DNA of 64,000 nt from Herpetosiphon giganteus (GTDB lineage Bacteria; Chloroflexota; Chloroflexia; Chloroflexales; Herpetosiphonaceae), in the NCBI RefSeq assembly GCF_016907925.1, contig NZ_JAFBCZ010000001.1, positions 248,001 through 312,000 of the forward strand. Direction: 5' to 3'. The notes beneath the pieces are model-generated. The model was not told the DNA's origin and made no database searches. It saw nothing but the letters and a program-made list of their open reading frames with translations. Below, one piece after another: positions 5,288 to 56,616 of this stretch. How positions within the stretch are numbered: position 1 is the first letter of the stretch; each line of letters begins with the position of its first letter. Position numbers and translations under genes: made by a program.

Positions 5288-5337
5288 AAGTCTATTAGGG
5301 CAATTACTATCGATAATTTTACTCCTTTAAGCATACA

Positions 5338-5396
5338 ATTGATGATAGCTTCTATCGATAAACTATCATTGTCGTTTGATAGAAGCTATCATCAAT
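5338..5396. repeat. 19-bp perfect inverted repeat between drmB and the methyltransferase
   Basis: Left arm 5338-5356 (ATTGATGATAGCTTCTATC) and right arm 5378-5396 are exact reverse complements around 21 nt. Pairing can continue inward past a 3-nt bulge (AAAC with GTTT). It lies in the 264-nt AT-rich gap between two convergent genes, so it could be a bidirectional transcription barrier. No clear T-run follows on either strand, so a standard intrinsic terminator is not certain. Confidence 0.85.
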
Positions 5397-5551
5397 ATAG
5401 CCATAAAATATGTTTATTTGTCAATATCTATACTAAATCTCGATATATTCACAAATTATCGCATACACTTGTTACATATTTGAATTTATTCAAGAAGAAT
5501 TTTTTTATTTAGAAATAAAATTCTTTAATTAAATAAAATCTTAATATGTAT

Positions 5552-10194: not shown

Positions 10195-11511
10195 CTACTT
10201 AAATAATTCGGCAATGCGGGCCTGAATGGCTGGCAAATCAGGCTGAATAATGTAAGCGCCATCGCTGGTGCTGGTTTCATAGCCATAGTTTAAATCAATC
10301 GATTCGCGCTGAATTGTGCTTGGCTCGAAATTCTGGAGCGCCAACACCAAGCGTAAAATCGTTGGCAAATCGATGCTCGTATATTCTAAGGTATTGTACA
10401 ACGAGCCAACTAATTCGATTGTAGCCACATTATCATTACTTTGAATCAGACTTTGCAAACGAGCAAAGATTGCCAGCAGCACCTGTTGTTGGCGCTTGCC
10501 GCGCTCAAAATCGTTGTCTGCATGGCGGGTGCGACTATAAATCAAGGCTGTTGCGCCATCCATATGTTGCACGCCTGGCAAAAAGTGGGCTTCCATATAG
10601 CCATAATCAAAGGTTGGATAGCGCGAATCGTAAATTTCCTTGGCAACATCAACCTCAATCCCGCCAATCAAATCGACCATTGTGATCATTTCTTCAAAGG
10701 TGGTCACAATCACTGCATCGATCGGCTGGCCAATCGTTGTACTGATCGTTTGACGGGCCAATTCCGACCCAGCTTGAGCGTCGTTATTGTCGCCCTCGCC
10801 ATACATATAGGCAGCATTTAATTTGACCGAGAAGCCATATTCTGGCGGCAAGGCCACCCAGAGATCGCGCGGCAAAGAAACCAATGCGGCGCTTTGGCTG
10901 CTTGGGTTAAGATGCAAGATTAATAAAGCATCAGCACGGGCTGGCTCGGTCTCACCAGGTCGGCGATCTAAGCCCAAAATGGCAATCGTCATTTGCTCTA
11001 AAGGCCGTGGGGTGGCGGTTGGGCGTGGGGTGCTGCTTGGCTTGGGCGTTGCGCTTGCTTGAATGGTAGCAGTTGCTTGCGGTAGCGCGGTTGCTGCGAG
11101 CGTGGCGCTTGGCTGAATCACGGGCAGGCTGTTTGGCTCGCCCAGACCACCAGCGACCACTGGTTGCGGCGTTGGGCTTAGCTCTACTTGCACCCCAACC
11201 ACTTGTTCAGGCGTGCTCCACCACCACCAACCGCCGCCCAAACCTAGCACCAAAAGCATAGCAACTACCGCCAATGGCCAGCGCCGCTTGCCTGATTTGG
11301 CCTGAGTTACGGTAGCGCTTGGTGTTGCCACCACCGGCTCTGCCAGCAGGCTCGCTAATAACTGCCGCTGCTCTTCGACTTTGAATACTTCGAGCAGGGC
11401 AAAGCAATCGGCACAATTAGCAATGTGGAAACCGAGTTGAGCGCGTTCCGGCGGGCGTACCGCCGGACGAATTCCTGCCGCAAGTTGGCGGCGCACGTCT
11501 TGACATTCCAT
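10195..11511 (-). CDS. LytR-CpsA-Psr (LCP) family protein with N-terminal zinc-finger-like domain
   Basis: 438 residues. The N-terminus (residues about 1-45) has the CQDV...HxxxC-x2-C pattern of the zf-HC2 zinc finger normally seen in anti-sigma factors. A transmembrane helix follows (LAVVAMLLVLGLGGGWWWW, about 78-98), then a Pro/Thr-rich linker, then an LCP domain from about 175. LCP hallmarks are present: ILGLDRRPG, the Asp/Arg-containing ARADALLILHL, SLPRDLWV, and the late YSRTRHADNDFERGKRQQQ. LCP enzymes move glycopolymers from lipid carriers to the cell wall. The zinc finger would be cytoplasmic and the LCP domain outside. The fusion is unusual and suggests cytoplasmic control of a wall-assembly enzyme. 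Confidence 0.85.
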   Translation of the reverse strand: MECQDVRRQLAAGIRPAVRPPERAQLGFHIANCADCFALLEVFKVEEQRQLLASLLAEPVVATPSATVTQAKSGKRRWPLAVVAMLLVLGLGGGWWWWSTPEQVVGVQVELSPTPQPVVAGGLGEPNSLPVIQPSATLAATALPQATATIQASATPKPSSTPRPTATPRPLEQMTIAILGLDRRPGETEPARADALLILHLNPSSQSAALVSLPRDLWVALPPEYGFSVKLNAAYMYGEGDNNDAQAGSELARQTISTTIGQPIDAVIVTTFEEMITMVDLIGGIEVDVAKEIYDSRYPTFDYGYMEAHFLPGVQHMDGATALIYSRTRHADNDFERGKRQQQVLLAIFARLQSLIQSNDNVATIELVGSLYNTLEYTSIDLPTILRLVLALQNFEPSTIQRESIDLNYGYETSTSDGAYIIQPDLPAIQARIAELFK

Positions 11512-11572
11512 GCAAGGTCCTTGAGGATGCTTGTTCGTCGCCTGATTATAGGCTGCTCGCCCAGAAGATGCA

Positions 11573-11604
11573 AAAAACGTAGCCTACGCAGCAGCTACGT
11601 TTTT
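11573..11604. terminator. Bidirectional-looking terminator after the sensor kinase gene
   Basis: The stem ACGTAGC/GCTACGT (11577-11583 and 11594-11600) is flanked by A-runs on the left and T-runs on the right. It can serve the minus-strand kinase gene ending at 11628. Confidence 0.65.
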
Positions 11605-30444: not shown

Positions 30445-32886
30445 TTAGATCCGGGTCATTTCGCGGCGAACCCGCACAATGTGGACTAACATCGTCATTG
30501 CAAAGAGCACAAAGCCGGTGGCTGGAATACCCATGTTGGTAGCAGGATTGCTCGTCCCAACATCGGTTACTGTGCCACCATCGCCATTGCCTTGGCCGCT
30601 GCCAACGCCGGTATTTGGCGTGACAGTTGCGGGGTTAGCGGTTGCGGCTCCGCCGCTGCCAGCGGTCGCATTTGGCACGGTTGTGGTGCTACCTGCAGGC
30701 GCTGCCCCAACCACCAAGACGCTCGAAATGTTCGAGTAGATTGGCTGAGCCAAGCCAGTGAAGTTCAACTGGGCTTGGTTCACAATGCGGGTTTGCGCTG
30801 CCACGCCATCTTTGATCTTGACTGGAATCATAATCGTCAAGGTTTGGCCAGCTGGCAAGACCCCTACGCGAACCGTAATTTGATTGCCTTGTTGCTCAAC
30901 GCGGGCATTTTGGTCACTGACCTTGATTGGGCCATTGGTTTCCAAGTTGCTTGGCAATTGATCAACCACAACCACATCACGCATCGTCCCAGCATTCAAC
31001 GAATTGGTTGGGCTGATGATCGTAATTGTGTAGACCAAGCTTTCGCCTGCGAAGCGGCTGCCCCAATCGCTCTTCTTCTGGAACTGCAAGCCAGTCACGA
31101 TTGGATCAGTGACGAAGCCAGCAGGATTGGTTGGAGTTGCGGTTGCTGGAGCAGGTGCATTGGTTGGTTGACTGCCAGCAGGTGCATTGGTAGCTGAAGC
31201 CACTGGTGCGCCTGGCCGTGGCGTTGCGGTTGGGTTACTACCACCACCAGGCCGTGGCGTTGCCGTAGCGACTGGTGCGCCTGGCCGTGGCGTTGCGGTT
31301 GGGTTGATTGGTGGAACAACCGTGGCAACTGGCACGTTGGTTGCTGGCACTGAAGTAATATCAGGCCGTGGCGTATTGCTTGGCTGATTTGGCTGTGGTG
31401 TATTGGTTGGTTGGTTTGGCCGTGGCGTATTGTTTGGCCGCGGCGTATTGTTTGGCCGAGTCGTAACCGGCACGCTCGTGTTGACAATCGGCGTAACTGG
31501 CGTGTTCACAATCGGCGTAACTGGCGTGTTCACAATCGGCGTAACTGGTGTGTTCACAATCGGCGTAACTGGTGTGTTCACAATTGGTGTTACTGGCGTA
31601 TTGACAATCGGCGTAACTGGTGTGCCATTGCCTGGCGTGATAGTCACGATAATTGGTGTATTTGGCGTAGTCGTAATCACAATTGGGGTAAAGCTTGGGC
31701 CAGCAGTCCCAATGGTGGTCGTTGGCAAGGTATCCGGTACGATCACAGTGTCGCTTGCTTGCAACGTACGGTTAGCAGCTGAAGCGCTTGCCGTATTGAC
31801 GATACTGGTGCCTGGCGCAACACTGGCATTCACTTGCACTTGGATGGTAACCACAATTGGATTACCAGCGGTCACGGTACCATTACAGTTGACCGTCGCG
31901 CCACCAACACAGGTTGCTGAGCCAAGCGCTTGGACAGCAATAAAGGTTACTTGGCTTGGTAATTGGTCAATAATCGTAACTGAGCGCGACGTTTGGCCAT
32001 CACCATTATCTTGGAAACTTACCGTGATGATATAACTAAACGTCTCTCCAGGCTGAACGAGCGCCCGTGAACTACTCTTAGCCACAGCAATTGGTTCAGA
32101 TGAAGGTAAGGTTGTTTCGGTTGCGGTTGCAGTTGTAATATCAGTTGGAACAGTTGCAATCGGTGTTTCTGGGGTAAGCGTAACGACACCAGTAATTGTA
32201 CCGGTTGGGGTCAGTTCTGGTGGAATCGTATCAGTCGGAATAATAAGTGACGTTGGCGTTACACATGGATCTGGGGTTTGCCCCAAAGGTCGGTGCAAAC
32301 GGGCGCTCCCACCCATGCCACCGCGAATAGCAGTTGGGCTAACCACATTGGTTGCGGTTGGGCTGACCACCGTCGTGATGGTTGGCGTAACCACGCTGGT
32401 TGAGGTTGGCAACTCAGGCGTGTCGGTCACACTTGGCGTATCCGTTGGCAAGCCAGGCGTGTCGGTCACACTTGGCGTATCCGTTGGCGAAATCACGCCG
32501 GTTGGCGTATCGGTCACACTTGGGGTATCGGTTGGAGTGCCCGGCGTGCCCGGTGTCGGATAGCTTGTTGCGGTCTCGGTTGGCGTGTTGGTTGGTTCTG
32601 CGGTTGGACAAGGTGTTATCAACGGCGTTTCAGTTGGCACCGGATAGGTCTGGGTAGCCGTTGGCGGCAGTGGAGTTACTGGTGTAGCCGCCGATGTTGG
32701 CCGAGGCGTGGTTTGAGCCTGAGCATTAAATGGAAAAATAGCACTGCTAATCGCGGCTAATAATGGCGTTGCCATCATAATGATGCTAACAACCAGCGCT
32801 GTTAACTCCCAGATTGTCCAGCGAACTTTGCCTTTACCTCGTTCGCGGAGGGATGTCGGGCGTTGCCGACGAAAAAAAGATTTCAT
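30445..32886 (-). CDS. Cell-surface protein with DUF11 domains, Thr/Pro repeats and an IPATG sorting-signal-like C-terminus
   Basis: 813 residues. An N-terminal basic segment and a hydrophobic helix (ELTALVVSIIMMATPLLAAI) act as signal. A long Thr/Pro-rich region (about 60-245, with SVTDTPG-type repeats) leads to a DUF11-like beta domain (about 268-385). Then come six NTPVTPIV repeats and more low-complexity linker, and a second DUF11-like domain (about 595-705). The C-terminus reads MGIPATGFVLFAMTMLVHIV followed by RVRREMTRI. That is an LPxTG-like pentapeptide (IPATG), a hydrophobic stretch and a basic tail, the layout of a sortase substrate. The gene directly upstream encodes a sortase, so they are likely enzyme and substrate. 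This protein probably forms a stalk-like surface structure. Confidence 0.82.
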   Translation of the reverse strand: MKSFFRRQRPTSLRERGKGKVRWTIWELTALVVSIIMMATPLLAAISSAIFPFNAQAQTTPRPTSAATPVTPLPPTATQTYPVPTETPLITPCPTAEPTNTPTETATSYPTPGTPGTPTDTPSVTDTPTGVISPTDTPSVTDTPGLPTDTPSVTDTPELPTSTSVVTPTITTVVSPTATNVVSPTAIRGGMGGSARLHRPLGQTPDPCVTPTSLIIPTDTIPPELTPTGTITGVVTLTPETPIATVPTDITTATATETTLPSSEPIAVAKSSSRALVQPGETFSYIITVSFQDNGDGQTSRSVTIIDQLPSQVTFIAVQALGSATCVGGATVNCNGTVTAGNPIVVTIQVQVNASVAPGTSIVNTASASAANRTLQASDTVIVPDTLPTTTIGTAGPSFTPIVITTTPNTPIIVTITPGNGTPVTPIVNTPVTPIVNTPVTPIVNTPVTPIVNTPVTPIVNTPVTPIVNTSVPVTTRPNNTPRPNNTPRPNQPTNTPQPNQPSNTPRPDITSVPATNVPVATVVPPINPTATPRPGAPVATATPRPGGGSNPTATPRPGAPVASATNAPAGSQPTNAPAPATATPTNPAGFVTDPIVTGLQFQKKSDWGSRFAGESLVYTITIISPTNSLNAGTMRDVVVVDQLPSNLETNGPIKVSDQNARVEQQGNQITVRVGVLPAGQTLTIMIPVKIKDGVAAQTRIVNQAQLNFTGLAQPIYSNISSVLVVGAAPAGSTTTVPNATAGSGGAATANPATVTPNTGVGSGQGNGDGGTVTDVGTSNPATNMGIPATGFVLFAMTMLVHIVRVRREMTRI
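31484..31627. repeat. Six 24-bp tandem repeats inside the surface protein gene
   Basis: Unit ACAATCGGCGTAACTGGCGT plus 4 nt, repeated six times with few changes and encoding NTPVTPIV. Copy number is likely to vary between strains. Confidence 0.85.
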
Positions 32887-32916
32887 GCGAAACCCCTCGA
32901 TCTATTGCCTCCGCAA

Positions 32917-33825
32917 TTAAGAGGAGAGCGCTGCCTGATCAATCAGCCGAGCTTTGACAACCAACCGTTGGGTGTCCCAAGCAGTACACGTGATCATCGT
33001 GATCATTGCTTGCTCGGTTGGATACATCACTTCGACTTGGTTTGGCCAAACTTGTTGAATAGTTTGGACTTGATAGTGATAACGAGTATCAGCTGTTTCA
33101 ACATAAATATCGTGGCCCAGCTGAAGTTCGTTCAGTCGGCCAAAGACACTGCCACGAATGCCAGCATGCCCCGCAAAAACAGTATTGCCTTTGCCCGGTA
33201 AGGCGGTGCCATGATGATAGCCTACCGCATAATCGGCAACTTCCCAAATTCCATCACGCAAAAAGACTTCGTGGATCGGACTATCGAGTTGCATTGTTGG
33301 CACGATAATCCGTTTTGGCACAAGACTCATGGGATCAGGCGTTGGGGTTGGCGTTGCAGGTTGTAAAATAAACCCTTGCGCAGGCTCGAGATAATCTGGG
33401 GCCGCAGCACTAATCGCTGGCGCAATCACTGGGAGTTGTTGCCCCAAAACCTGATCAAGTTCGGCGGCACTGGCTCCAGGTGCAAGTGCTTCCCAAACTG
33501 GGGCTGGAGCAGATGGATTGCTGCGCGCATACCACCAATCGCGGCCATAGATATTGACCACCCAATAACCAAAGAAAACGATCACACCAATGATTAACAA
33601 GCGTTCTGAGCGCACTAAAATAGCATCAAGCACCCCACGGAAACGGTACCCTTGAAGTGCAGTCTTACGCTCTTCTTTGAGCGAACGAAGTTGGGCAGGT
33701 CGATGCAATGACGAACGCACTGGTGGTGGTGCTGCCAGCAATTCTTGAAGCAAGCCCAAATCGTCGTGTGTCGAATCGATGGTTGGCGGTTGTACCACTA
33801 CAAACTCGTACTCTATATGCTTCAA
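32917..33825 (-). CDS. Sortase
   Basis: 302 residues. The N-terminal cytoplasmic part (about 1-70) is followed by a transmembrane helix (LLIIGVIVFFGYWVV, about 77-92), a spacer, then a sortase beta-barrel from about 165. The catalytic residues are visible: His in NTVFAGHAG (about 218), Cys in MITMITCTAW (about 281) and Arg in QRLVVKARL (about 289). It would cleave an LPxTG-like motif and attach the protein to the envelope. The next gene (31 nt on) encodes a protein ending in IPATG plus a membrane tail. I cannot assign the class (D or E) with certainty. The only in-frame start near the beginning is TTG 33825, preceded by AGGG. Confidence 0.88.
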   Translation of the reverse strand: MKHIEYEFVVVQPPTIDSTHDDLGLLQELLAAPPPVRSSLHRPAQLRSLKEERKTALQGYRFRGVLDAILVRSERLLIIGVIVFFGYWVVNIYGRDWWYARSNPSAPAPVWEALAPGASAAELDQVLGQQLPVIAPAISAAAPDYLEPAQGFILQPATPTPTPDPMSLVPKRIIVPTMQLDSPIHEVFLRDGIWEVADYAVGYHHGTALPGKGNTVFAGHAGIRGSVFGRLNELQLGHDIYVETADTRYHYQVQTIQQVWPNQVEVMYPTEQAMITMITCTAWDTQRLVVKARLIDQAALSS

Positions 33826-36992: not shown

Positions 36993-36994
36993 AA

Positions 36995-37441
36995 TTACCT
37001 CAGATATTTCGGTTTGATCAACCAACGCCGCGCATGACGCAGCCACGCCAGAAGCCATTGAACGTAACGCCCAAGCCGATTGAGCTTCAAGTGAGCATTT
37101 GGCGTTTGCCAAGCGACAGCCTGGGCCACAATTGCCGAGCGCTCGATCCAGCCATCGAAATAGGGGCAGGCATCGCCAGCAATCAAATATCGCTGTTGGT
37201 TGCGCCAAAGCACCCGATGCATGACCACGCGTTGCCCAACATCAGCCAAAACCACGCTGCCCAAGCTAATAGTTGCTGGCATATCAGCAATTGTCACCAA
37301 GGTTTGGTCAGGCAGGATTGGCTGCATACTGCGGCCCGCCACTTGGAGCTGGAGCCTACCACCTGCCTGCACAACCAACTGCGCCAAGTCGTAGGCCTCG
37401 GCGGCGCTGAGCACTCGTTCAGCCAAGGAGTTGGCGCACAT
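36995..37441 (-). CDS. S24/S26-like peptidase with Ser-His site, part of the peptide cassette
   Basis: 148 residues. The family's serine motif is QVAGRSMQPIL (Ser38). The usual Lys of bacterial signal peptidases is replaced by His (VVMHRV, His75), as in the ER/SipW type, and the closing GDA box is at 89-91. There is no N-terminal membrane anchor; a hydrophobic/basic helix is near the C-terminus (VQWLLAWLRHARRWL). Its start overlaps the kinase gene by 23 nt. Small S24/S26-like proteins recur in clusters for ribosomally made peptides, where leader cleavage is their suspected role. That role is inferred here. ATG 37441 has GAGG 9 nt upstream. Confidence 0.75.
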   Translation of the reverse strand: MCANSLAERVLSAAEAYDLAQLVVQAGGRLQLQVAGRSMQPILPDQTLVTIADMPATISLGSVVLADVGQRVVMHRVLWRNQQRYLIAGDACPYFDGWIERSAIVAQAVAWQTPNAHLKLNRLGRYVQWLLAWLRHARRWLIKPKYLR

Positions 37442-38249
37442 AGCTAATTACCTCAGAATCGGGCACAAACGCCAAGTGCCATTGGTCCACTTTGCTGGTA
37501 GCATAATCGGCAAGCTCCAAGGCTTGGTCGAGGGCAATTGGGTTCCACAAGGGCAGAAATTGCTCGGGCAACCAATGGCGCAAGGCTTGGGCGCTGCTCA
37601 AACGAGTGGCGTGGTTGGTTGCGCCATGGCTGGGGTAGCATATTGCCCGTACTGGGGCTGCTTGGGCAGCGATTAAACCAGCGCTGCTATACCATGGCGT
37701 GCCATAAGCCCAAAGCTGGTCGGCATGCCAACGCACAATCACCCGATCATCGCTCAAAATGCTAGCTCCCGCGCTATGCCAAAGGCGCGCTGAGGTTGAT
37801 TTGCCCACGCCTGGCGGGCCAACCAAGAGCAAGCCTTGCCCTGCATCGACCACGCCGCAGGCATGCAACAAACCACCTTGATGCACACTCAGCCATTCAA
37901 TTAAGATCAACTGCAAGCCTGGATAATCAAACAACACTTCGGCGGCGCTAACACTTGAATCATGGCTGAGCAACCACGTATCAGCGGCGGTTTGTTGCAA
38001 CGCCCACAATGGCTCGGCATGAGTTGGCGGGTGGCCGACGATACTGCGAATATGCTCGTGCTGCCAAAGCGCCCAAACCTGATCGGCCTGAAAAAGCCGC
38101 TGACCAAGCGGGTAGCGGTCAGCGGCAGCACAGGTGTGAATCTGAAGATCGGCGGTTGAAGCATTGATTTGAAATTGCTGGTCGACCATAGCTGGCCACG
38201 CTGGCAGATCAAGTGCAATTCGACAACCGCCAATGGAAAGCATTACCAT
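37419..38249 (-). CDS. HPr-kinase-like protein of the peptide cassette
   Basis: About 276 residues with a C-terminal HprK-type P-loop kinase domain. The Walker A motif is GPPGVGKST (about 144-152), preceded by GLLHACGVV, and an acidic SDDRVIV is at about 166. The N-terminal half is unrelated to classical HprK. HprK-like proteins occur in lasso-peptide clusters, where one (the paeninodin kinase) phosphorylates the C-terminal serine of the precursor. The peptide encoded just upstream also ends in serine. I place the start at ATG 38249 (or 38243) because an earlier TTG-initiated frame would overlap the precursor gene. No clear SD is seen, so translation may depend on reinitiation after the precursor stop 16 nt upstream. 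Confidence 0.8.
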   Translation of the reverse strand: MVMLSIGGCRIALDLPAWPAMVDQQFQINASTADLQIHTCAAADRYPLGQRLFQADQVWALWQHEHIRSIVGHPPTHAEPLWALQQTAADTWLLSHDSSVSAAEVLFDYPGLQLILIEWLSVHQGGLLHACGVVDAGQGLLLVGPPGVGKSTSARLWHSAGASILSDDRVIVRWHADQLWAYGTPWYSSAGLIAAQAAPVRAICYPSHGATNHATRLSSAQALRHWLPEQFLPLWNPIALDQALELADYATSKVDQWHLAFVPDSEVISYVRQLLG

Positions 38250-38265
38250 CGCAAAAAAAGAACGC

Positions 38266-38436
38266 TTAACTAAAACAGGGCGTAATTTTACAGTTTGCGC
38301 CCGATGTGGCGCTACTGGTCGTGCGGCACACCGCCAACACATCTTCTTTAATCCGCAAGCCAACCGTTTCGATGGTTGGTTTGACATAGGCTTTGCGGGG
38401 CTTGCGTTCTGGCTTGGTCGATGATTGTTGTGCCAT
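38266..38436 (-). CDS. Candidate RiPP precursor peptide, 56 residues
   Basis: A short gene with a perfect GGAGG 7 nt before ATG 38436, placed between the radical SAM gene (22 nt before) and the kinase gene (16 nt after). The leader is basic and polar and holds AYVKPTIETVGLRIKED (residues 16-32), with a Y17-x-x-P20-x-I22 motif like the one recognised by PqqD-type domains in lasso peptide leaders. The tail (33-56) is rich in Ser, Thr and Cys: Cys37, Cys49 and Cys54, a SSATSGANC stretch, and a C-terminal CFS. The cysteines are candidates for radical SAM thioether crosslinks, and Ser56 for phosphorylation. The coding region and SD are visible; the modifications are inferred. Confidence 0.8.
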   Translation of the reverse strand: MAQQSSTKPERKPRKAYVKPTIETVGLRIKEDVLAVCRTTSSATSGANCKITPCFS

Positions 38437-38457
38437 GAGACATCCTCCGGTACGCGG

Positions 38458-39573
38458 TTAGCGAACCTCTAGACAAATTGCATTATTGATCCAACGGTCG
38501 GCATTTTCAGCAAAGGCTGAAACCCGCGCCTTCGTACTATCACACACCCAATCGATTGGGCGATTTTCCAAGCTGTTACGCTCTAAGGTCGACCAACCTG
38601 GACAATTGGTACAGACCAGTGACATTTCGCAGGAGTGACAAGCAGTGGCTTCAGTATTGCGGGTTTCGCGCACTTCGGCCAAATAGCCATCCCACACATC
38701 CATAAAATTGGTTGCCCGCCAATCGACAGCGCGCGTGCGGGTAATCATACACGGGCTGACCATGCCATAGGCATCGACATGGCCCGATTTATTGGCAGCG
38801 CCACAGGTGAATGTTTTTTCGCCGCCCTTCATCTGATAGCCCAAAAAGCCGTTGCAATAATCCTGCCATTCCTCGACCCGCTGGGGATCAAGTTTTTCGA
38901 TGGCGATCAATTCTTCTGGGCTAAGCCGTAAAGTGGTAGGAAAACGATCGCCATTCAAGCGCGGGTGAATCATGCCATCATAGCGAAAATCCCAGCCATA
39001 GTGCTCGGCTACAGCTTTCATGGCCAAAAATTCGTGCGAATTAATATTGAGCAGCACGGTTTTGAGCACCACATCAAGCTCATATTCGGCCAGCAGCGCC
39101 AAGCCTTGCATACATTTAGCAAACGATCCAGGCACACGAGTCACGGTTTCGTAGGTTTCGGCGGTTGCGCCATAGAGCGTCACTTCGACCAAATGTGGCT
39201 TGTAGTTGCTCAAAAATTCAGCTCGTTGGCGGGTAACCATGGTGGCATTGGTGTAAATCGAAATTACAAAGCCAAGGTTGCGAGCATAAAGATATAACTC
39301 TTCAAAATCGCGGCGCACCATAATTTCGCCACCAGTGAGCAGCAACCACAGCGTGCCAGCTGCCGCCATCTCATCGAGCAGGCGTTTACACTCCTCGGTT
39401 GAAAGCTCACGTTGGCGGGCAGCTTGATGATTGACAGGCAAGTTGATATAGCAATGTTGGCAATTTAAGTTACAGCGCTCGGTCAACTCAAACGACATCG
39501 AAACTGGCACGCGCCCCAAGGCTGATAATCGGACATTGAACGCCGCATCGTTGGTTTCTGCACATAATTCCAT
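38458..39573 (-). CDS. Radical SAM/SPASM peptide-modifying enzyme
   Basis: 371 residues. The CX3CX2C iron-sulphur motif is CNLNCQHC (Cys34, 38, 41), followed by the LLTGGEIMVRRDFEEL segment that binds SAM. The C-terminal SPASM region has many cysteines (FTCGAANKSGHVDAYGMVSPC, then CHSCEMSLVCTNCPG) for extra clusters. Such enzymes make sactipeptide or ranthipeptide thioethers and other crosslinks in peptides. It follows the PqqD-like gene by 2 nt with GGAGG inside that gene's end. The next gene encodes a Cys-bearing peptide, the likely substrate. Confidence 0.9.
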   Translation of the reverse strand: MELCAETNDAAFNVRLSALGRVPVSMSFELTERCNLNCQHCYINLPVNHQAARQRELSTEECKRLLDEMAAAGTLWLLLTGGEIMVRRDFEELYLYARNLGFVISIYTNATMVTRQRAEFLSNYKPHLVEVTLYGATAETYETVTRVPGSFAKCMQGLALLAEYELDVVLKTVLLNINSHEFLAMKAVAEHYGWDFRYDGMIHPRLNGDRFPTTLRLSPEELIAIEKLDPQRVEEWQDYCNGFLGYQMKGGEKTFTCGAANKSGHVDAYGMVSPCMITRTRAVDWRATNFMDVWDGYLAEVRETRNTEATACHSCEMSLVCTNCPGWSTLERNSLENRPIDWVCDSTKARVSAFAENADRWINNAICLEVR

Positions 39574-39575
39574 GC

Positions 39576-39872
39576 TTAGGCAACCTCCTGAATAACGGCG
39601 GCCTCAAGCATCGATTCCAACAACGGAATCAGATCGTCTTGGGCGGCGCGCGGTTCAACATCGTATTCGGCACACACATGCTCGATCAATTCGGCCAAAC
39701 TTTGGGGCGTTGCCAAAGCCTGCCAAACCAGCGCGGCGGTTTCGTTAAGCGCAAAAATAGCATTGAGGGCGGCGGTGTTTGGTCGTACAGGAACCAACAC
39801 CGTTTCACTCCCAATGCTACGGGTAACAATCGCCGGATCACGGACAAATCGTTGTGGAGCGTGCTCATTCAT
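39576..39872 (-). CDS. PqqD-like RiPP recognition element protein
   Basis: 98 residues of winged-helix PqqD type: an N-terminal beta region (VPVRPNTAALNAIFALNETA), ALVWQALATPQSLAELIEHV, then the third-helix region with EYDVEPRAAQDDLIPLLESM. PqqD-like proteins bind the leader peptide and present it to the radical SAM enzyme. It is the first gene of the cassette, 39 nt after a predicted transcription start and directly coupled to the radical SAM gene. Confidence 0.85.
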   Translation of the reverse strand: MNEHAPQRFVRDPAIVTRSIGSETVLVPVRPNTAALNAIFALNETAALVWQALATPQSLAELIEHVCAEYDVEPRAAQDDLIPLLESMLEAAVIQEVA

Positions 39873-39917
39873 AAGTGTCTACTCAAACCACAAGGGTTAG
39901 CAATTGCAATGATTTTC

Positions 39918-39947
39918 ATCTTAGCATGAACTGATCTCCACGTCCAA
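39918..39947 (-). promoter_or_regulatory. Promoter of the peptide cassette
   Basis: On the minus strand TTGGAC (39942-39947), an 18-nt spacer, then TAAGAT (39918-39923) preceded by TGC. Predicted start near 39911. Confidence 0.55.
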
Positions 39948-39982: not shown

Positions 39983-40642
39983 TTAGACTTGCGGTGGCGC
40001 GAGCCGAGCTTGCACCGCAAATAAGCGCAATTCAGCTTTATTACCCAACCCTAATTTGCTATAAATATTGCGTAAATGGGTTTTGATTGTTTCTTCGCTG
40101 AGAATTAATTGCTGGGCAATATCGCTGTTGCGGCGGCCTTCGGCGGCCAAGAAAAAGACTTGGCGTTCGCGCTCGGTTAGGGCGTTCAAGGCATCGTTGG
40201 TTTTGGTCGAGACGGTTGGCTGTGGGCCTTCCAACAGTTGGCGCACAACTTTTTGGGCAATCGGGCCAGCCAAAACGGTCTCGCCTTGGGCAACCGCGCT
40301 AATATGACTAATCAAGCGCGAAGGATCTTCGGTTTTGAGCACATAGCCAGCAGCCCCAGCGGCCAACGATTGGCGAATCACATCATTGGTATCGTTGGCG
40401 GTCAGCATCAAAACTCGCGTGCGTGGCGATGCTTCAACAATTGTGCGACACACTTCATAGCCAGGCATATCAGGCAAGCTAACATCGAGCAGCGCTACAT
40501 CAACAAATTGATCTTTCGCCACTACCGCAGCGTCGCGCCCATGCCCAAGCACGCCAACAACTTCCATCTCATCGTGGGTTTCGAGCAGGGCACGTACCCC
40601 TTCACGAAACACTGGATGATCATCAACAATCAGGATCCGCAT
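39983..40642 (-). CDS. NarL/FixJ-family response regulator
   Basis: 219 residues. A receiver domain (MRILIVDDHPVFREGVRALL; phosphoacceptor Asp in VALLDVSLPDMPG at about 54) is joined to a LuxR-type helix-turn-helix (LTERERQVFFLAAEG ... SEETIKTHLRNIYSKLGL). ATG 40642 has AAGGAG 6 nt upstream; the open frame extends further upstream but without similarity. It lies 106 nt after the sensor kinase gene and just before the peptide cassette, so it may be the cassette's regulator. Confidence 0.9.
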   Translation of the reverse strand: MRILIVDDHPVFREGVRALLETHDEMEVVGVLGHGRDAAVVAKDQFVDVALLDVSLPDMPGYEVCRTIVEASPRTRVLMLTANDTNDVIRQSLAAGAAGYVLKTEDPSRLISHISAVAQGETVLAGPIAQKVVRQLLEGPQPTVSTKTNDALNALTERERQVFFLAAEGRRNSDIAQQLILSEETIKTHLRNIYSKLGLGNKAELRLFAVQARLAPPQV

Positions 40643-40748: not shown

Positions 40749-42350
40749 TCATGCGGTATGGCTATGTTGTTCCAAGGGCAACCAACAGGTGAATTGCGAA
40801 CCTTGACCAACGGTGCTGGCGACCGAAATGGTGCCACCCATCAGGGCCAGCAACTCGCGAACAATGGCTAAACCTAAGCCGCTCCCACTCTCGGTTGGGT
40901 TACTACCGCGATAAAAACGTTCAAATAAGCGTTGTTGATGTTCGGCTGCGATGCCCGGCCCCGTATCAGCGACCGTAATAATTGTGCCCGCCTGCCCAGC
41001 TTGAATCTGGCGATCAACTGAGAGGGTGACAGTGCCACCATCGGGTGTAAATTTGAGTGCATTGCTCAGCAAGTTGACGACCACTCGCATAAATTGATCA
41101 GGCGCGAGCCACAACGCAGGCAAATTGCTGGTGCATTCTTGAAAAATCAAGCGTTGTTCGCGCGCTTCGGCCAATGGGCGATAGGTTTGAGCCAAATTGC
41201 GCAACAACTCGATAATATCCACCCACTCCGGATTGCTGTGCATCAAGCCACTATCCAAGCGGGTCAGCGTCAGCAAATCTTCGACGATGGCCTCCAAGCG
41301 CCCAGCCTCGCTTGCTATAGTTTCGAGATATTGGGGCAATTTGGTTTTAGCCTTAACTTGCTGCGCCAAGCGCGCATAGAGTTTAATGTTGGCCAACGGC
41401 GTGCGCAATTCATGCGAAGCATTGGCGACAAACTGAGTTTTAAGCCGATCATATTCCTTCAGCCGCGTAATATCGTGGAGCACAATCGTCCACCAATCTT
41501 CTTGCTCGCTGAAAATCGGAATATAGGCAATATGGATGCCCAGATCGGTGGTTGGATTTTGCTCAAGCACAATTTCATCGCGCACACTATCGCCAGTCTG
41601 TTGCGCTTGCTTAAAAAGTGCCAACACAAGCGGCGAAAGATCTTTGAGATGCTCGGGGACTGGCGGCGTAACTGCGAAAAAAGCCAAGGCTTGGGGATTA
41701 ACAAAGTGGATGCGGCCATCGCCATCGACCAAAATCAAGCCTTCTTCCATGGCGGTGAAGGCTCCCTCGAATTTGCGCCGCTCATCGTTAATATCAGCAA
41801 TCAGTTGGGCATTCTCAATCGCCATGGCCGCATGCTGCGCAATCACATTCAGCAGCGCCTCATCATCCATGGTAAAAAAGCCAATTTCGGGATGCACCAA
41901 GGTCAAAACCCCGCGCACCCGTCGCCCGCGCAACAGCGGCACACACAGCACCGAACGCACATCCAAGGTATCGCTAGGATAATCGATCCAGCGTTCGTCG
42001 AGGTTGGTATCGGCAATTAAGGCGCTTTGGCGGTGTTTCAATACCCAACTTGCCAAGCCTTCGCGCAGAATCCGGTTGGTAAAAGGGGTTAAGCGTGCTT
42101 GTTGAAAACGCTCGGAGAGCAAATGCATTTGCACTTCGTCGTGCTCGCCATATAAAAAGATGCTGCCACGCACCGCGTTGGTAAAGCGAGTGGTGGCCGA
42201 AAGCACATGTTGCAAAACATTCGGCAAACTTAACATCGTCGCAAACTGTTGAGCGAGGCTATAGAGCAACTGCAACCGTTCATACTCGGTTCGCAAACGC
42301 TGATATGAATCTTCGGGGCTTGGCACCGGACTAGCTTCATTCGCGGCCAT
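40749..42350 (-). CDS. Soluble sensor histidine kinase (GAF, PAS, HisKA, HATPase)
   Basis: 533 residues with no membrane segment. Residues about 15-45 form a short coiled coil, a GAF domain covers about 40-185, a PAS domain about 195-300, then the phosphoacceptor helix (ASHELRTPLANIKLY) and an ATPase domain with NALKFTPDGGT, DTGPGIA and GSGLGLAIVREL. It probably phosphorylates the response regulator encoded next. ATG 42350 has GGAG 6 nt upstream. Confidence 0.9.
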   Translation of the reverse strand: MAANEASPVPSPEDSYQRLRTEYERLQLLYSLAQQFATMLSLPNVLQHVLSATTRFTNAVRGSIFLYGEHDEVQMHLLSERFQQARLTPFTNRILREGLASWVLKHRQSALIADTNLDERWIDYPSDTLDVRSVLCVPLLRGRRVRGVLTLVHPEIGFFTMDDEALLNVIAQHAAMAIENAQLIADINDERRKFEGAFTAMEEGLILVDGDGRIHFVNPQALAFFAVTPPVPEHLKDLSPLVLALFKQAQQTGDSVRDEIVLEQNPTTDLGIHIAYIPIFSEQEDWWTIVLHDITRLKEYDRLKTQFVANASHELRTPLANIKLYARLAQQVKAKTKLPQYLETIASEAGRLEAIVEDLLTLTRLDSGLMHSNPEWVDIIELLRNLAQTYRPLAEAREQRLIFQECTSNLPALWLAPDQFMRVVVNLLSNALKFTPDGGTVTLSVDRQIQAGQAGTIITVADTGPGIAAEHQQRLFERFYRGSNPTESGSGLGLAIVRELLALMGGTISVASTVGQGSQFTCWLPLEQHSHTA

Positions 42351-42384
42351 AGGATACTCCACAGCTATGCGGCTTATGCTAAAA

Positions 42385-42393
42385 ATTATAACA
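42385..42393 (-). promoter_or_regulatory. Extended -10 promoter of the sensor kinase gene
   Basis: The minus strand reads TGTTATAAT, 35 nt before the ATG. Confidence 0.5.
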
Positions 42394-42549
42394 CCGAGTT
42401 TCAAGCCACAAGGGGAGCCGAAAATCGCCTCATGGACTGATTAATGAGTATGATACAATGATTCACGATGAAACCAAATGCTGCTGAGTACCAATTCCAG
42501 ATTTTCGTGTTTAATGCTGTGTGTACTCATCACTCACATTGAGGTACTG

Positions 42550-51376: not shown

Positions 51377-54058
51377 ATGTTTGTCAACCTGCGGCGACGG
51401 CTTAAAAGGCGCATTCGGTATAAAATCACCCTGCCATATTTGCTGTTGCTAGCATTTTTGTCGGGTTTATTGATTGTGATTATTTTTTGGCTGTATGCCC
51501 AAAGCTTGCAGAACCAACTGAATCAATCGCTGCGTACCAGCGCCACCAACACTGGCGTTGGCTTGGAAACAATCGAAGCCCAAATTCTCGATAACTTGCG
51601 CCTACTTGTCACTTCGCCTGCCAACGAAAAAGAAGATTTGCTGAGCACTGCCGAGGCATTTAGCAAAAATGACGTTGATCAGGTCGAAAAGATCGTCAAC
51701 AATGCCTTTAATTATTTCAAGCCCTCACGCTTAATTGCGCTCAATGCTGATGGTCAAGTTTTGGTCGATGCCGCTAGTTCAGCGGTATTGAGCCGCAGCC
51801 CCTCGCTGGTTGGTAGCAGCGAATTAGCCAAAGATAGCTTGATTCAGGCGGTGCTGCGTGGCCAAGTTGATGATTATGGCGATAAATATGCCAGCCTCTT
51901 GCGCATCGGCACAAATCCACCGTACACGATGTTTTTTGTGGTTGCTCCGGTCAAATTAACAGTTGGCAGCAGCGAGCAAGTGGTTGGGGCAATTATCTAT
52001 GCAGAGCCGTTAGAGCGAATTGTCAACGAGGAATTACCACCACGCAACGGCGCAACAATTACCGCAATTCTCAATAGCGATGGCAGCGTTTTGACCAGCA
52101 ATCCGCCGCAAGAAGCAGCTGAATTGGTCATCAGCGCCAATCAGATTGAGCAAATTAAGGCCAGCCAAGCCAACCCCGACCCAGAAACCCGTGGCACACT
52201 GTTTACCACCATTCAACGTGGCGATACCAGTTATCAAGTAATGTATAGCCCAATGCGGATTCGGCGGGCGCTGAATGGCTATTTTGCGGTTGGTCTGCCG
52301 CGCAGCAACATTGATCGGGCTTGGCAACAAGCGCGAGTGCTGATTTTCCTCTTTGGCATTCTTTCGCTGATCTCAATTATTTGGATCAGCGTGCGGGTTA
52401 CACGCAGCATCACCGTGCCGCTTGGCGAGTTGGTCAGTACCGCCTTGCGGATCAAAAGCGGCGATTTAGAAGGCCGTAGTTTTGTTTCCGAGGAAAATGA
52501 GCTTGGCACGCTCGCGACGGTTTTAAATGATATGACCGATCGCTTGCTCGATTTATATCGCACCAGTCGCCAACTCGGTACAGAATTGACTCTTGATGGC
52601 GTTTTGACCCAAACCACTGCCGCTGTACAACGCCTCATTCCCGAGGCCGAAGTTGATGCTTTGGTGGTCGAACAAGGCGTTTGGCATTATGTCACCACCG
52701 AGACCGTGCGCGAAATTGCGCGGCCTTTTCCCGCGACCAGCCTTGAAACGCTCGCGCCAATGGTGACGATCACCGAAAATCCGGCCTTGGATAGTGCTTT
52801 GCGTCCGCTTGCGCCGAATGTGCAGTTGGTTTTGCCCTTGCGCACCCAGCAACAAGTTATTGGCGCGTTGTTGGTGAAGAATGATCACGCTATGCCAGCA
52901 GCTAGCAGCATTCGCGAGCCACTGAGCGCAATCGCCAGCATGACCGCGACAGCGATGCAAAACGCTGTGCTCTACACCACAGTTCAAGATGAAGCCAGCC
53001 GCAAGCAGGCAATTTTGCAAAGTATCGCCGATGGGGTGATTGTGCTTGATCCCGATGGCAAAGTTATTTTGGTCAACCACACCGCCACTGCCATGCTCGG
53101 CGCGAGTGAAGCCGATTTGTTGGGCAAGAGCTTTGCTGAATTCAGGCTCACGCCATTGTCGGGCGGCGCTGAGCTGTTTGCCACGCCCACAGCCACAACC
53201 TTTTATGAAACCAGCGCTCAGCGCATTTTGACCGTCAATGCAGCGCCGGTTGAACGCGAAGGCTTGCAATCGGGCGAAGTGTTGGTGTTGCACGATGTGA
53301 CCGAAGAACGGGCAATGGATCGGGCCAAAACTGACTTTATCGCCACAATTTCGCACGAACTGCGCACGCCGTTGACCTCGATTTGTGGCTATGCCGATTT
53401 GCTGTTGCGCGGCTTTGTTGGGCCATTGACCGACGAACAAACCCAATTTATGACCACAATTCGCCAACAAGGCCAAAGCATGGTCGAAGTGCTGCAAAAT
53501 GTGATTGTGATTGCCAGCATCGAAGCCGGCAACATGGAACCGCAAATTGAGCAACATTTATTACCTGAACTGCTACCGCCAATAGCCCAGGCGTTCCAGA
53601 AGGGCTTTGAGCAAAAACAACTCAAATTGCTCATTGATATTCCAGAGAACATGCCGTACATTGTAGTAGATCGCGACCACTTCAAGATAATGCTGACCCA
53701 GCTTTTGGAGAATGCCCGCCGCTATACCCAAACTGGCACAGTGACGGTACAAGCCAAGACTGTCGATCAGCGCATTCAAATTGCGGTAATCGATACTGGC
53801 CCGGGGATTGCCAGCCAAGATTTTGAGCGCTTGTTTGAGCGCTTTCAACGGGGCGGCGAGCAAAGTGGCTTGACCTCGAAAGAACGCGGGATTGGGCTTG
53901 GTTTAGCGATTACCAAACAATTAGTTGAACGCAATAATGGTAAAATTTGGGTCGATAGCACCCAAGGCGTTGGTTCAAGCTTCATTATGCAGTTTCCAAT
54001 GCTGCAACTTGAGCCAAGCAACTACGACTTAATGAAGGCAACGGTATCAAATTCATGA
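51377..54058 (+). CDS. Membrane sensor histidine kinase (extracytoplasmic sensor, HAMP, GAF, PAS, HisKA, HATPase)
   Basis: 893 residues. Two membrane helices (about 17-41, LLLLAFLSGLLIVIIFW; and about 313-335, VLIFLFGILSLISIIWI) enclose a 270-residue extracytoplasmic sensor of Cache-like character. HAMP (about 336-390), GAF (about 400-540) and PAS (about 545-655) domains follow, then HisKA with SHELRTPLTSICGY and the ATPase domain (LENARRYTQTG, DTGPGIA, IGLGLAITKQL). It is co-transcribed with the preceding soluble kinase and overlaps the next surface protein gene by 4 nt, which hints that the sensor and the surface protein work together. Confidence 0.9.
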   Translation: MFVNLRRRLKRRIRYKITLPYLLLLAFLSGLLIVIIFWLYAQSLQNQLNQSLRTSATNTGVGLETIEAQILDNLRLLVTSPANEKEDLLSTAEAFSKNDVDQVEKIVNNAFNYFKPSRLIALNADGQVLVDAASSAVLSRSPSLVGSSELAKDSLIQAVLRGQVDDYGDKYASLLRIGTNPPYTMFFVVAPVKLTVGSSEQVVGAIIYAEPLERIVNEELPPRNGATITAILNSDGSVLTSNPPQEAAELVISANQIEQIKASQANPDPETRGTLFTTIQRGDTSYQVMYSPMRIRRALNGYFAVGLPRSNIDRAWQQARVLIFLFGILSLISIIWISVRVTRSITVPLGELVSTALRIKSGDLEGRSFVSEENELGTLATVLNDMTDRLLDLYRTSRQLGTELTLDGVLTQTTAAVQRLIPEAEVDALVVEQGVWHYVTTETVREIARPFPATSLETLAPMVTITENPALDSALRPLAPNVQLVLPLRTQQQVIGALLVKNDHAMPAASSIREPLSAIASMTATAMQNAVLYTTVQDEASRKQAILQSIADGVIVLDPDGKVILVNHTATAMLGASEADLLGKSFAEFRLTPLSGGAELFATPTATTFYETSAQRILTVNAAPVEREGLQSGEVLVLHDVTEERAMDRAKTDFIATISHELRTPLTSICGYADLLLRGFVGPLTDEQTQFMTTIRQQGQSMVEVLQNVIVIASIEAGNMEPQIEQHLLPELLPPIAQAFQKGFEQKQLKLLIDIPENMPYIVVDRDHFKIMLTQLLENARRYTQTGTVTVQAKTVDQRIQIAVIDTGPGIASQDFERLFERFQRGGEQSGLTSKERGIGLGLAITKQLVERNNGKIWVDSTQGVGSSFIMQFPMLQLEPSNYDLMKATVSNS

Positions 54059-56616
54059 GCAATAGCGCCATACCACAACCAAATACCCAAGAACCACGCG
54101 ACCGATTGTTATTAACGATCGGTTCAATTGTGATTTTAGCGGTGTTGTTGGTCATGGGCTGCTCATCGTTAATGGTTGTGCGCTGGACAACCCCAGTTAA
54201 TGCTTCTGGGCCTGAGGTCTTGCTGCCACCGTTTGCCAATTATGAAGCGTGGAATGGCACAGCGCCTTTTCCAATTGGCCAAGAAGCAATTCGCAGCAAA
54301 ATTAGCGATCAGCCAGCCAACCCAAATTTGGTTGCTGCTGAAACTCCCGTGCCAATTGGGATTGTTGATTTGATGCCAACTGCTACGCCAACTGGCAAAC
54401 CAACGCCAGCAACTGATGCTGCCAAAACATCGACCAGCACCAACACACCCACGCCAACCAAGGCCGAAGGAATTCCGATTGGCAGTGCAACTGCGGCCAC
54501 AACTGAGCCAAGCGTGGAATTAACTGCCGAGCCAAGCTCTACGCCACGGGTGAACCCAAGCTCAACGGCTAGCCCGCGCACGCCAACTGTTAACCCAACC
54601 ATCAATCCAACCAGACCAACCTTCGAGCCAGCGCCAAGCAACACGCCAACGCGCACAAGTGTTGTGGCAACGACGGTTGTTCCGGCCAGCGCAACCGTGG
54701 CCAATACGGCTCTGCCAAGCGCAACCGCAACCGCATTGCCAACCGCAACGCCAACCAACACGCGGATTCCAAGCAGCACTCCAGTGCCTGCTACCGCAAC
54801 CAACACGCCAACTGACGTGCCGGTTATTACACCTGTGCCTGCTACCGCAACCAACACGCCAACTGACGTGCCGGTTATTACGCCTGTGCCTGCTACCGCA
54901 ACCAATACGCCAATTATTGCTACGGCAACCAACACGCCGTTTGTGCCAAGCAACACGCCAACCGATCTGCCAACCCCAACCAACACGGCGACGGCCACCG
55001 CAACTGCGACGGCCACACCAACCGATCTGCCAACTGCAACCGATACAGCTACGCCGACCGATACAGCTACACCAACCGCAACGCCTGCGCCAGAGCTATA
55101 CATTGCTTGGCGGGTCGATGGAGTCGTCAATCCAGTGAATCCATCGCTGGAAAATAACGACACCAAGCAGGTCTTTGTGGTCTTCGGCAATGCCGGCAAT
55201 GCTCCAGCGGCTAATGCACAGGTCAATATCAGCGTAACTGGAACCTGTATTGAGTCAAGTATTAGCGATAGCGGTACACGAATTACGCTTCAGGCACATC
55301 AAGGCTTTACGCTTTCGCCAGTTATTTCAGCCAATAATGTTGGTACTTGTTCGATTACGGCAATTTTAACTGCCGATAATCAAACCCCAGTTCAGGCAAG
55401 CCTGAATTGGACGATTGTGTGTGATGGCTGTGCGACGGCAACGCCGCAACCAACCAGCACGCCTACGCGCACGCCAACCGCAACGCCAACCAGAACTGCG
55501 ACACCAACCAACACGGCGACAGCAACCAATACACCAACGCCGAGCAATACGCTCACGCCAAGCAATACGCCGACGGCGACCAATACCCGCACGCCAACGA
55601 CGATTCCGACGTTGACCTATACCCCAACGCCGAGCAACACGCCAACGGCGACCAATACGCGTACGCCAACCTTTACGCCAACTAACACGCCAACACCGAG
55701 CAACACACCAACGGCGACCAATACGCGCACGCCAACCTTTACGCCAACCATTACCAACACACCTACGCCGAGCAATACGCCAACGGTGACCAATACGCCG
55801 ATCCCAACCAACACGCCAACCGATGTTCCAACGCCAACCGAAACGCCGTTGCCAACTGATACACCAATGCCAAGCGACACGCCAACACCAAGCGAGACAC
55901 CAACGCCCAGTGAAACGCCAACACCAAGCGAGACACCAACGCCGAGTGAAACGCCAACACCGAGCGAAACGCCGACGTTAACCGCAACGCCAACGCCAAC
56001 ACCTGATTTGTTTGTGTTTCACATCATCAATGGCGAGGTCAATCCATCAGGCAACATCACCTTGGCTGCTGGCGCACAAGAAAATGTCACGGTTGTGTTT
56101 GGCAATAACGCGAGTGGTTCACGGGCAACTGGCTTGAATTTCAATTTCAATGCTGGCTCGTGTATTAGCGCCCAGCCAGGCTCAAGCGATTCAAGCGATT
56201 TGAACGGCGGTTCGAATCGTTCACTCTCGGTCGTGGTTACGGGCAGTTCGGTCGGCTCGTGTTCATTCCGCACCCAATTTGGTGCCAGCAATGCCAATAC
56301 CGTCAGTGCTGATAGCCGTTTTCGTGTCACCAATACGCTGCAAAACGAGCCAGCGCTTGCCGCTACGGCAACTGCTACTGCTACCACAGAAGCAACTGCA
56401 ACCACTGCGCCAACCGCAGTACCAACCGCAGAGCCAACCGAGCAACCAACTGCCGAACCAAAGGCAACCTTGGAGCCTGCGCTGCCAGTGATTGGCCAAA
56501 GCGCTGGACTGCCACCAAGCTCTGGTGGTCAATTGCTCTGGCTGATGGCGGGTGGGCTGTGCGTCCTGATCAGCAGCTTGCGTGGGCGAAGAATCCTACC
56601 GCTTAACGTTGCCTAA
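54055..56616 (+). CDS. Mucin-like Thr/Pro-rich surface protein
   Basis: 853 residues. An N-terminal membrane helix (LLLTIGSIVILAVLLVMGCS) anchors or exports it. A short ordered part is followed by about 240 residues of Thr/Pro/Ala repeats, a beta domain (about 342-455, starting YIAWRVDGVVNP), a second long repeat tract (TPTPSNTPTATNTRTPT-like, about 462-645), a second copy of the same kind of beta domain (about 650-755, FHIINGEVNPSGN), and a C-terminal membrane helix plus basic tail (LLWLMAGGLCVLIS, RGRR). The two beta domains are related to each other. The stretch before the helix has LPPSSG, a weak sorting-signal candidate. ATG overlaps the kinase stop (ATGA). Confidence 0.82.
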   Translation: MSNSAIPQPNTQEPRDRLLLTIGSIVILAVLLVMGCSSLMVVRWTTPVNASGPEVLLPPFANYEAWNGTAPFPIGQEAIRSKISDQPANPNLVAAETPVPIGIVDLMPTATPTGKPTPATDAAKTSTSTNTPTPTKAEGIPIGSATAATTEPSVELTAEPSSTPRVNPSSTASPRTPTVNPTINPTRPTFEPAPSNTPTRTSVVATTVVPASATVANTALPSATATALPTATPTNTRIPSSTPVPATATNTPTDVPVITPVPATATNTPTDVPVITPVPATATNTPIIATATNTPFVPSNTPTDLPTPTNTATATATATATPTDLPTATDTATPTDTATPTATPAPELYIAWRVDGVVNPVNPSLENNDTKQVFVVFGNAGNAPAANAQVNISVTGTCIESSISDSGTRITLQAHQGFTLSPVISANNVGTCSITAILTADNQTPVQASLNWTIVCDGCATATPQPTSTPTRTPTATPTRTATPTNTATATNTPTPSNTLTPSNTPTATNTRTPTTIPTLTYTPTPSNTPTATNTRTPTFTPTNTPTPSNTPTATNTRTPTFTPTITNTPTPSNTPTVTNTPIPTNTPTDVPTPTETPLPTDTPMPSDTPTPSETPTPSETPTPSETPTPSETPTPSETPTLTATPTPTPDLFVFHIINGEVNPSGNITLAAGAQENVTVVFGNNASGSRATGLNFNFNAGSCISAQPGSSDSSDLNGGSNRSLSVVVTGSSVGSCSFRTQFGASNANTVSADSRFRVTNTLQNEPALAATATATATTEATATTAPTAVPTAEPTEQPTAEPKATLEPALPVIGQSAGLPPSSGGQLLWLMAGGLCVLISSLRGRRILPLNVA
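54786..54905. repeat. 51-bp tandem repeat in the mucin-like gene
   Basis: Two full copies and a part of a unit that encodes PATATNTPTDVPVITPV. Many shorter ACGCCAAC-type repeats continue to about 56000. Confidence 0.8.

Follow-up and report, generated by a model that had tools for sequence, protein, structure and literature searches.

What does a bacterial operon make when it places a radical SAM enzyme and an HprK-like kinase on either side of a gene for a peptide of 56 residues? The operon in question lies on the minus strand of a 64,000-nucleotide stretch of the Herpetosiphon giganteus genome (Chloroflexota; RefSeq assembly GCF_016907925.1, contig NZ_JAFBCZ010000001.1, positions 248,001 to 312,000; hereafter the window). 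Herpetosiphon is a genus of predatory soil bacteria. Six adjacent genes encode, in order, a PqqD-type protein, a radical SAM/SPASM enzyme, the peptide precursor, the kinase, an S24/S26-like peptidase and a C25 protease (Table 1). An earlier note on this DNA had proposed a new cassette for a ribosomally synthesized and post-translationally modified peptide (RiPP), comprising a leader-binding protein, a crosslinking enzyme, a kinase and proteases. Every gene that it named was found, on the minus strand and in the place it gave, and the proposal is supported by gene order, the conserved peptide and comparative data on the kinase, with the chemistry as a prediction. We conclude that the operon probably directs the synthesis of a RiPP, in which the PqqD-type protein would bind the leader, the radical SAM enzyme would install crosslinks, the kinase would phosphorylate the peptide, the S24/S26-like peptidase would remove the leader and the C25 protease would act as a partner. 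At the level of sequence, this reading is supported by the genes themselves, the conserved peptide, the fixed gene order, the linkage to C25 and the covariation of kinase motif with peptide; from these we infer each chemical step, export and function.

The genes are tightly packed. Two nucleotides separate pqqD from the radical SAM gene, 21 nt with a GGAGG box separate the latter from the precursor gene, 16 nt lie between precursor and kinase genes, and the kinase and S24/S26-like genes overlap by 23 nt. The C25 gene lies outside the interval covered by the earlier note (36993–39947), and we count it as an operon member because it starts 2 nt past the S24/S26-like stop codon. The 'own predicted promoter' that had been claimed for the operon found no support: a sigma-70 scan found 7 sites against 7.3 expected, which is chance level. 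None of them fell in the 110 nt that precede pqqD, where only an extended -10-like TGCTAAGAT was seen.

Table 1. Features of the operon and its surroundings, in window coordinates
Feature	Position	Strand	Evidence or remark
PqqD-type RiPP recognition element (RRE) protein, predicted leader binder, 98 aa	39576..39872	-	PF05402 E 1e-14, above cut-off
Radical SAM/SPASM peptide maturase, 371 aa	38458..39573	-	PF04055 E 6e-20; CxxxCxxC core and SPASM Cys set
56-aa precursor peptide with three Cys, ending in Ser	38266..38436	-	Purifying selection; homologues in other loci read
Precursor leader motif YVKP (YxxP type)	38377..38388	-	Y and P invariant in 15 aligned precursors
Predicted core from first Cys, CRTTSSATSGANCKITPCFS	38269..38328	-	Identical in six Herpetosiphon genomes but for last Ser/Thr
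Ser56, C-terminal, predicted phosphoacceptor	38269..38271	-	C-terminal Ser/Thr in 17/17 dereplicated Asp-Asp-kinase loci
HprK-like peptide kinase (predicted), 276 aa	37419..38249	-	His, P-loop GPPGVGKST, SDDR; AlphaFold2 fold and motif alignment
S24/S26-like peptidase, Ser/His type (GRSMQP, HRV), 148 aa	36995..37441	-	PF00717 E 7e-6
Secreted C25 (gingipain-family) protease, 1017 aa	33939..36992	-	PF01364 E 1e-88; catalytic His and Cys; N-terminal signal-like segment
Response regulator (context)	39983..40642	-	Pfam; 110 nt upstream of pqqD; same order in OHK22
Sensor histidine kinase (context)	40749..42404	-	Pfam; upstream of response regulator; same order in OHK22
Sortase (context)	32917..33825	-	PF04203 E 5e-26; downstream; present in loci L008-L011, L016 and L017

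The precursor gene is real and conserved as a protein. Between the Herpetosiphon species (six genomes), the proportion of synonymous differences (pS) in this open reading frame was 0.10–0.53 and that of nonsynonymous differences (pN) 0–0.03, and in comparisons between the two species groups the third codon position accounted for 158 of 191 differences. The low pN relative to pS, together with the third-position variation, identifies the small frame as a gene under strong purifying selection; this pattern and the homologues rule out a chance reading frame. The last residue of the core is Ser in one species group and Thr in the other (the H. aurantiacus group). Such a nearly invariant core suggests a standing function and not an arms-race weapon. 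The precursor of a Herpetosiphonaceae metagenome-assembled genome (MAG), OHK22, retains VLAVCRTxSxAxxGxxCKITPCFS. Features common to the precursors across loci are K-x-Y-x-x-P, or a near variant of it, and a hydrophobic pattern in the leader; most also have three Cys residues (two in the cores of a few loci, L055 and L056). The core differs widely in length and sequence between genera (in locus L040 it begins CKVEAL), and Cys is its most conserved feature. We dropped a reading of L-x-x-C as the mark of a mature lipoprotein because no hydrophobic signal segment is present in the precursor (Kyte–Doolittle score of the best 19-residue window, 0.54). Locus L035 (879-1235) has one radical SAM enzyme accompanied by a tandem pair of precursor genes whose cores differ.

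A search for this gene order across Chloroflexota genomes, proposed in the earlier note, was positive. All six Herpetosiphon genomes and OHK22 carry an orthologous cassette, and the radical SAM gene was found in 7 of 41 genomes comprising the host and its relatives, all of them Herpetosiphonaceae. Further afield, it was present in 18 of 400 sampled Chloroflexota genomes (E<=1e-35), in 35 of 396 genomes from the class of genome G222 (E<=1e-75), in 23 of 400 from the order of that genome (E<=1e-105), and in 2/245 and 1/29 genomes of two other classes. A scan of the whole collection with patterns from this protein had a reach limited to close relatives and so does not establish that other phyla lack the gene; the plasmid collection yielded only radical SAM proteins of 27-28% identity. 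We read 49 main-clade Chloroflexota loci, many of them from MAGs, and all counts refer to sampled genomes. The small gene between the radical SAM and kinase genes, on which the earlier proposal turned, was there as a precursor homologue in 47 of the 47 loci having the kinase. A second, distant radical SAM clade (loci L045 and L072) carries a C25 gene and a two-Cys peptide with a KPYxxP leader.

Strong comparative evidence concerns the kinase. By sequence it gives only a weak match (to TIGR04355, at E 4e-8 and under the cut-off), and its AlphaFold2 model (mean predicted local distance difference test score (pLDDT) 87) matched only HPrK/PEPCK (phosphoenolpyruvate carboxykinase) folds at E<=0.001. 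Along with this fold, it has the hallmarks of lasso-type kinases, namely the His, the P-loop Lys and the Asp-Asp pair. The lasso kinases PadeK and ThcoK require His-Lys-Asp-Asp and phosphorylate a C-terminal Ser, and BsfK targets Ser3 of the core (PMC9266682, PMC10368454). With loci dereplicated at 65% radical SAM identity, and treated in the tests as independent, which is not fully true, peptides paired with [SNC]-D-D kinases ended in Ser or Thr in 17 of 17 loci (Ser and Thr make up 19% of core residues), compared with 5 of 19 for kinases with other motifs (Fisher P 3e-6). This rule was first seen in 33 loci and then met newly fetched ones, in which a C-terminal Ser was present in 4/4 Asp-Asp loci and 1/11 G-type loci; L130 (SDER) also ended in Ser. 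The kinase motif of L141 is SDDR. A C-terminal Ser/Thr was absent in L054, which has no kinase in the 17 kb read, and in L060, which has a changed kinase motif. Kinases of the G-[E/D]-[D/E] type were paired with peptides of drifting C-termini, and a Ser/Thr three residues past the first Cys occurred in 14 of 15 Glu-Asp-kinase loci versus 2 of 17 Asp-Asp loci (P 7e-6), a pattern noticed only once all loci had been collected.

These data are most simply read as showing a kinase that acts on the peptide and whose target site has shifted over evolutionary time. The covariation leads us to predict PadeK-like C-terminal phosphorylation in Herpetosiphon and a shifted site elsewhere, and it lends strong comparative support to the suggestion in the earlier note that an HprK-like kinase modifies the peptide. 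HprK kinases regulate metabolism in other bacteria, and this one could likewise be a regulator or act on another protein, an idea with which its weak overall match to known kinases would agree. We regard this as improbable: the kinase gene always adjoins the precursor gene, its His, P-loop and Asp pair are conserved, and its motif covaries with the position of the peptide Ser/Thr, including in loci fetched after the C-terminal rule had been seen.

The product of the radical SAM enzyme is likely to be a Cys thioether, given that Cys is the most conserved core feature and that SkfB is the best match. The Cys set of the enzyme is conserved in 13 homologues and its C-terminus is SPASM-like. A profile search against the PDB placed SkfB first (E 4e-26), and the AlphaFold2 model (pLDDT 86) was closest to SkfB, SuiB and PqqE, with anSME and EpeE also among the matches. 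SPASM maturases of similar fold, SuiB, PqqE and EpeE among those matched, catalyse many reactions, and a few cores (L055 and L056) have two Cys instead of three, so the enzyme might instead form C–C or ether crosslinks, epimerize residues or modify one Cys only. We consider such other chemistry rather unlikely, given how well Cys is kept in otherwise variable cores and that a thioether enzyme is the best match in both sequence and fold. The PqqD-type protein has the lasso B1/PqqD chaperones as its nearest NCBIfam models (NF033536 and NF033530, below cut-off).

Of the two proteases, the S24/S26-like one keeps its GxSMxP and HRV-type motifs, with Ser/His instead of the usual Ser/Lys, in 17/17 aligned homologues, and the catalytic His and Cys are kept in 25/25 cassette C25 proteins. 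In 41 of 49 loci there is a C25 gene no more than 9 kb away, and 5 of the 8 others have less than 2 kb of downstream sequence before the contig ends. The S24/S26-like gene was found in 32 of 49, which makes C25 the more constant companion of the cassette. Of the three C25 genes in the host genome, one belongs to the cassette; the 25 cassette genomes hold 0-7 each, and about 0.24 neighbours would be expected by chance. Cassette C25 proteins mostly form one subfamily, apart from the other C25 proteins that these genomes encode (the tree needs 5 label changes, versus a shuffled mean of 15.4). This recurrence and the clustering on the tree make C25 part of the system and rule it out as an unrelated neighbour.

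It is a real, if lesser, possibility that C25 is no processing enzyme at all and that the peptide inhibits it, activates it or serves as its substrate, which would make the peptide a modified regulator of an extracellular protease. C25 is kept with the cassette more often than the S24/S26-like peptidase, it has a signal-like N-terminus, a relative carries several extra domains (a C25 propeptide and cadherin-like domains in locus L034), and C25 goes unmentioned in a review of the proteases that remove RiPP leaders (PMC10885120). Against this, contact between C25 and the peptide is a supposition, neighbours in RiPP operons are often processing enzymes, and the 17 loci with no nearby S24/S26-like gene would require some other leader protease.

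Taken together, the comparisons suggest the following pathway. The PqqD-type protein would bind the YxxP leader of the precursor and deliver it to the two tailoring enzymes. The radical SAM/SPASM enzyme would modify the core via its conserved Cys residues, most likely as Cys-to-carbon thioether crosslinks, and the kinase would phosphorylate the C-terminal Ser/Thr, as PadeK does on paeninodin, a lasso peptide. The S24/S26-like Ser/His peptidase would most likely cut off the leader, and the secreted C25 would be a dedicated partner outside the membrane that either completes maturation or is acted on by the peptide.

Several observations weigh against this pathway. The likeness to SkfB and PqqE leaves thioether formation indistinguishable from other kinds of radical chemistry. 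In the radical SAM phylogeny, the G-type kinase arises three times (the Glu-Asp clade, L135 and L140), each time with a shifted Ser/Thr, but the Glu-Asp kinases are a single clade and, counting strongly supported branches, only one change of kinase type is required; the independent events may be fewer than three. No S24/S26-like gene was found near 17 of the 49 loci, some of which were cut short, and no clear membrane segment was found in the Herpetosiphon form of the protein, so that the leader may be cut off before the peptide leaves the cytoplasm. The role of C25, whether in maturation or as target, we infer from linkage alone.

The Herpetosiphon cassette also has no dedicated exporter. This would agree with a rival reading, in which the peptide is the precursor of a small intracellular redox cofactor or signal, such as pyrroloquinoline quinone (PQQ) or mycofactocin, and the proteases trim it. 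The core, nearly invariant across Herpetosiphon, is unlike that of an arms-race bacteriocin, and the radical SAM enzyme resembles mycofactocin MftC and PqqE among others. Such a product nevertheless seems quite unlikely, because the core varies in length and sequence between genera, lacks a fixed dipeptide of the kind found in PqqA and MftA, and keeps three Cys and a C-terminal Ser/Thr over a long core; the most constant neighbour is a large secreted protease, and at one locus (L040) an ABC (ATP-binding cassette) transporter stands in line with the cassette.

If the RiPP pathway set out above is right, radical crosslinking and kinase phosphorylation are joined on one peptide, a combination for which we found no description. 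The loci would then offer a natural series in which the kinase active-site motif and the position of the phosphoacceptor change together, making kinase specificity directly testable, and would link a RiPP to a secreted protease of the gingipain family. More tentatively, with the chances standing a little short of even, we propose a Chloroflexota RiPP class that combines radical crosslinking of three Cys with lasso-type phosphorylation, in which the kinase target switched from the C-terminal Ser/Thr to the Ser/Thr three residues past the first Cys as Asp-Asp became G-[E/D]-[D/E], and in which a secreted C25 would be an obligate partner.

The surroundings of the operon hold further genes. The sortase downstream is conserved in the family and may have a place in the peptide system. 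Together with the gene after it, for a Thr/Pro-rich surface protein of 813 aa whose C-terminus is IPATG-like, it spans 30445-33825; the pair adjoins the C25 gene and is conserved across Herpetosiphon. Near the window start (52-6718), genes for DrmA, DrmB and a DNA cytosine methylase, with a G+C fraction (GC) of 0.39-0.43 versus 0.51, form a DISARM-like phage-defence locus, and a long Thr/Pro-repeat gene at 54055-56616 shows strong GC skew (-0.225).

How does the cassette compare with known systems? Discrete lasso-type RREs often accompany radical SAM enzymes, as the authors of RRE-Finder remarked (PMC7470986), so this pairing is already known. In agreement with the earlier note, which knew of no product family with this full set, no protein of the window reached an NCBIfam equivalog cut-off, relatives matching models of the same kind, and searches of open-licence literature returned no description of the full set including kinase and C25. 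We rejected assignment to SynChlorMet, GeoRSP, HPr-rel-A, mycofactocin or PqqE, all of which scored below cut-off. We therefore judge the family a variant and not wholly new: the pairing of RRE and radical SAM enzyme is known, and we found no account of the full set with kinase and C25.

Among known systems, sactipeptide and ranthipeptide clusters (SkfB, AlbA, StsB, PapB) share the radical SAM/SPASM enzyme and the Cys core, with SkfB as the nearest solved structure, but the cassette has a separate lasso-type RRE and a kinase, and its thioether is a prediction; the AlbA, SkfB, StsB and PapB maturase models stayed below cut-off for the window enzyme (StsB 81/625 and PapB 55/340 bits). SynChlorMet (NCBIfam ScmC, ScmD, ScmE and ScmF) likewise brings together PqqD, radical SAM/SPASM and HprK-like proteins, and the window proteins match its four models weakly, far below the curated cut-offs (kinase 16.3/125, PqqD 17.6/100, radical SAM 79.1 and 74/400 bits). 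Unlike SynChlorMet, which has two radical SAM enzymes, the cassette has one, along with a three-Cys precursor and the S24/S26-like and C25 proteases. Cassettes with a trio of radical SAM enzymes (Aminicenantes, Omnitrophota and some Chloroflexota; L012-L014, L044, L066 and L068) also have PqqD, S24-like and radical SAM genes, and several share the HprK-like kinase and a YxxP/WxxP leader with a multi-Cys core. They differ in having three radical SAM enzymes, no C25 in the stretches read and, in the loci outside Chloroflexota, about 33% radical SAM identity. Multi-Cys peptides with YxxP/WxxP leaders lie at 11389-11586 and 14926-15204 in L013 and also in L044, L066 and L068 (Aminicenantes, Chloroflexota).

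The phosphorylated lasso clusters (paeninodin PadeK; BsfK) share the PqqD-type B1 protein, the YxxP leader motif, which B1/RRE proteins bind in lasso systems (PMC10368454), an HprK-like kinase with His-Lys-Asp-Asp and a C-terminal Ser. As the earlier note had observed, no lasso cyclase is present: neither an Asn-synthetase-like cyclase nor a transglutaminase-like B2 protein was among the genes scanned at 25.8-51.4 kb of the window, and with no cyclase in or beside the operon a lasso cluster is ruled out. In the cassette, a radical SAM enzyme and three Cys replace cyclase and B2, and a C25 protease is added. The operon probably represents a RiPP family that joins lasso-like recognition and phosphorylation to radical SAM chemistry in place of lasso cyclization.

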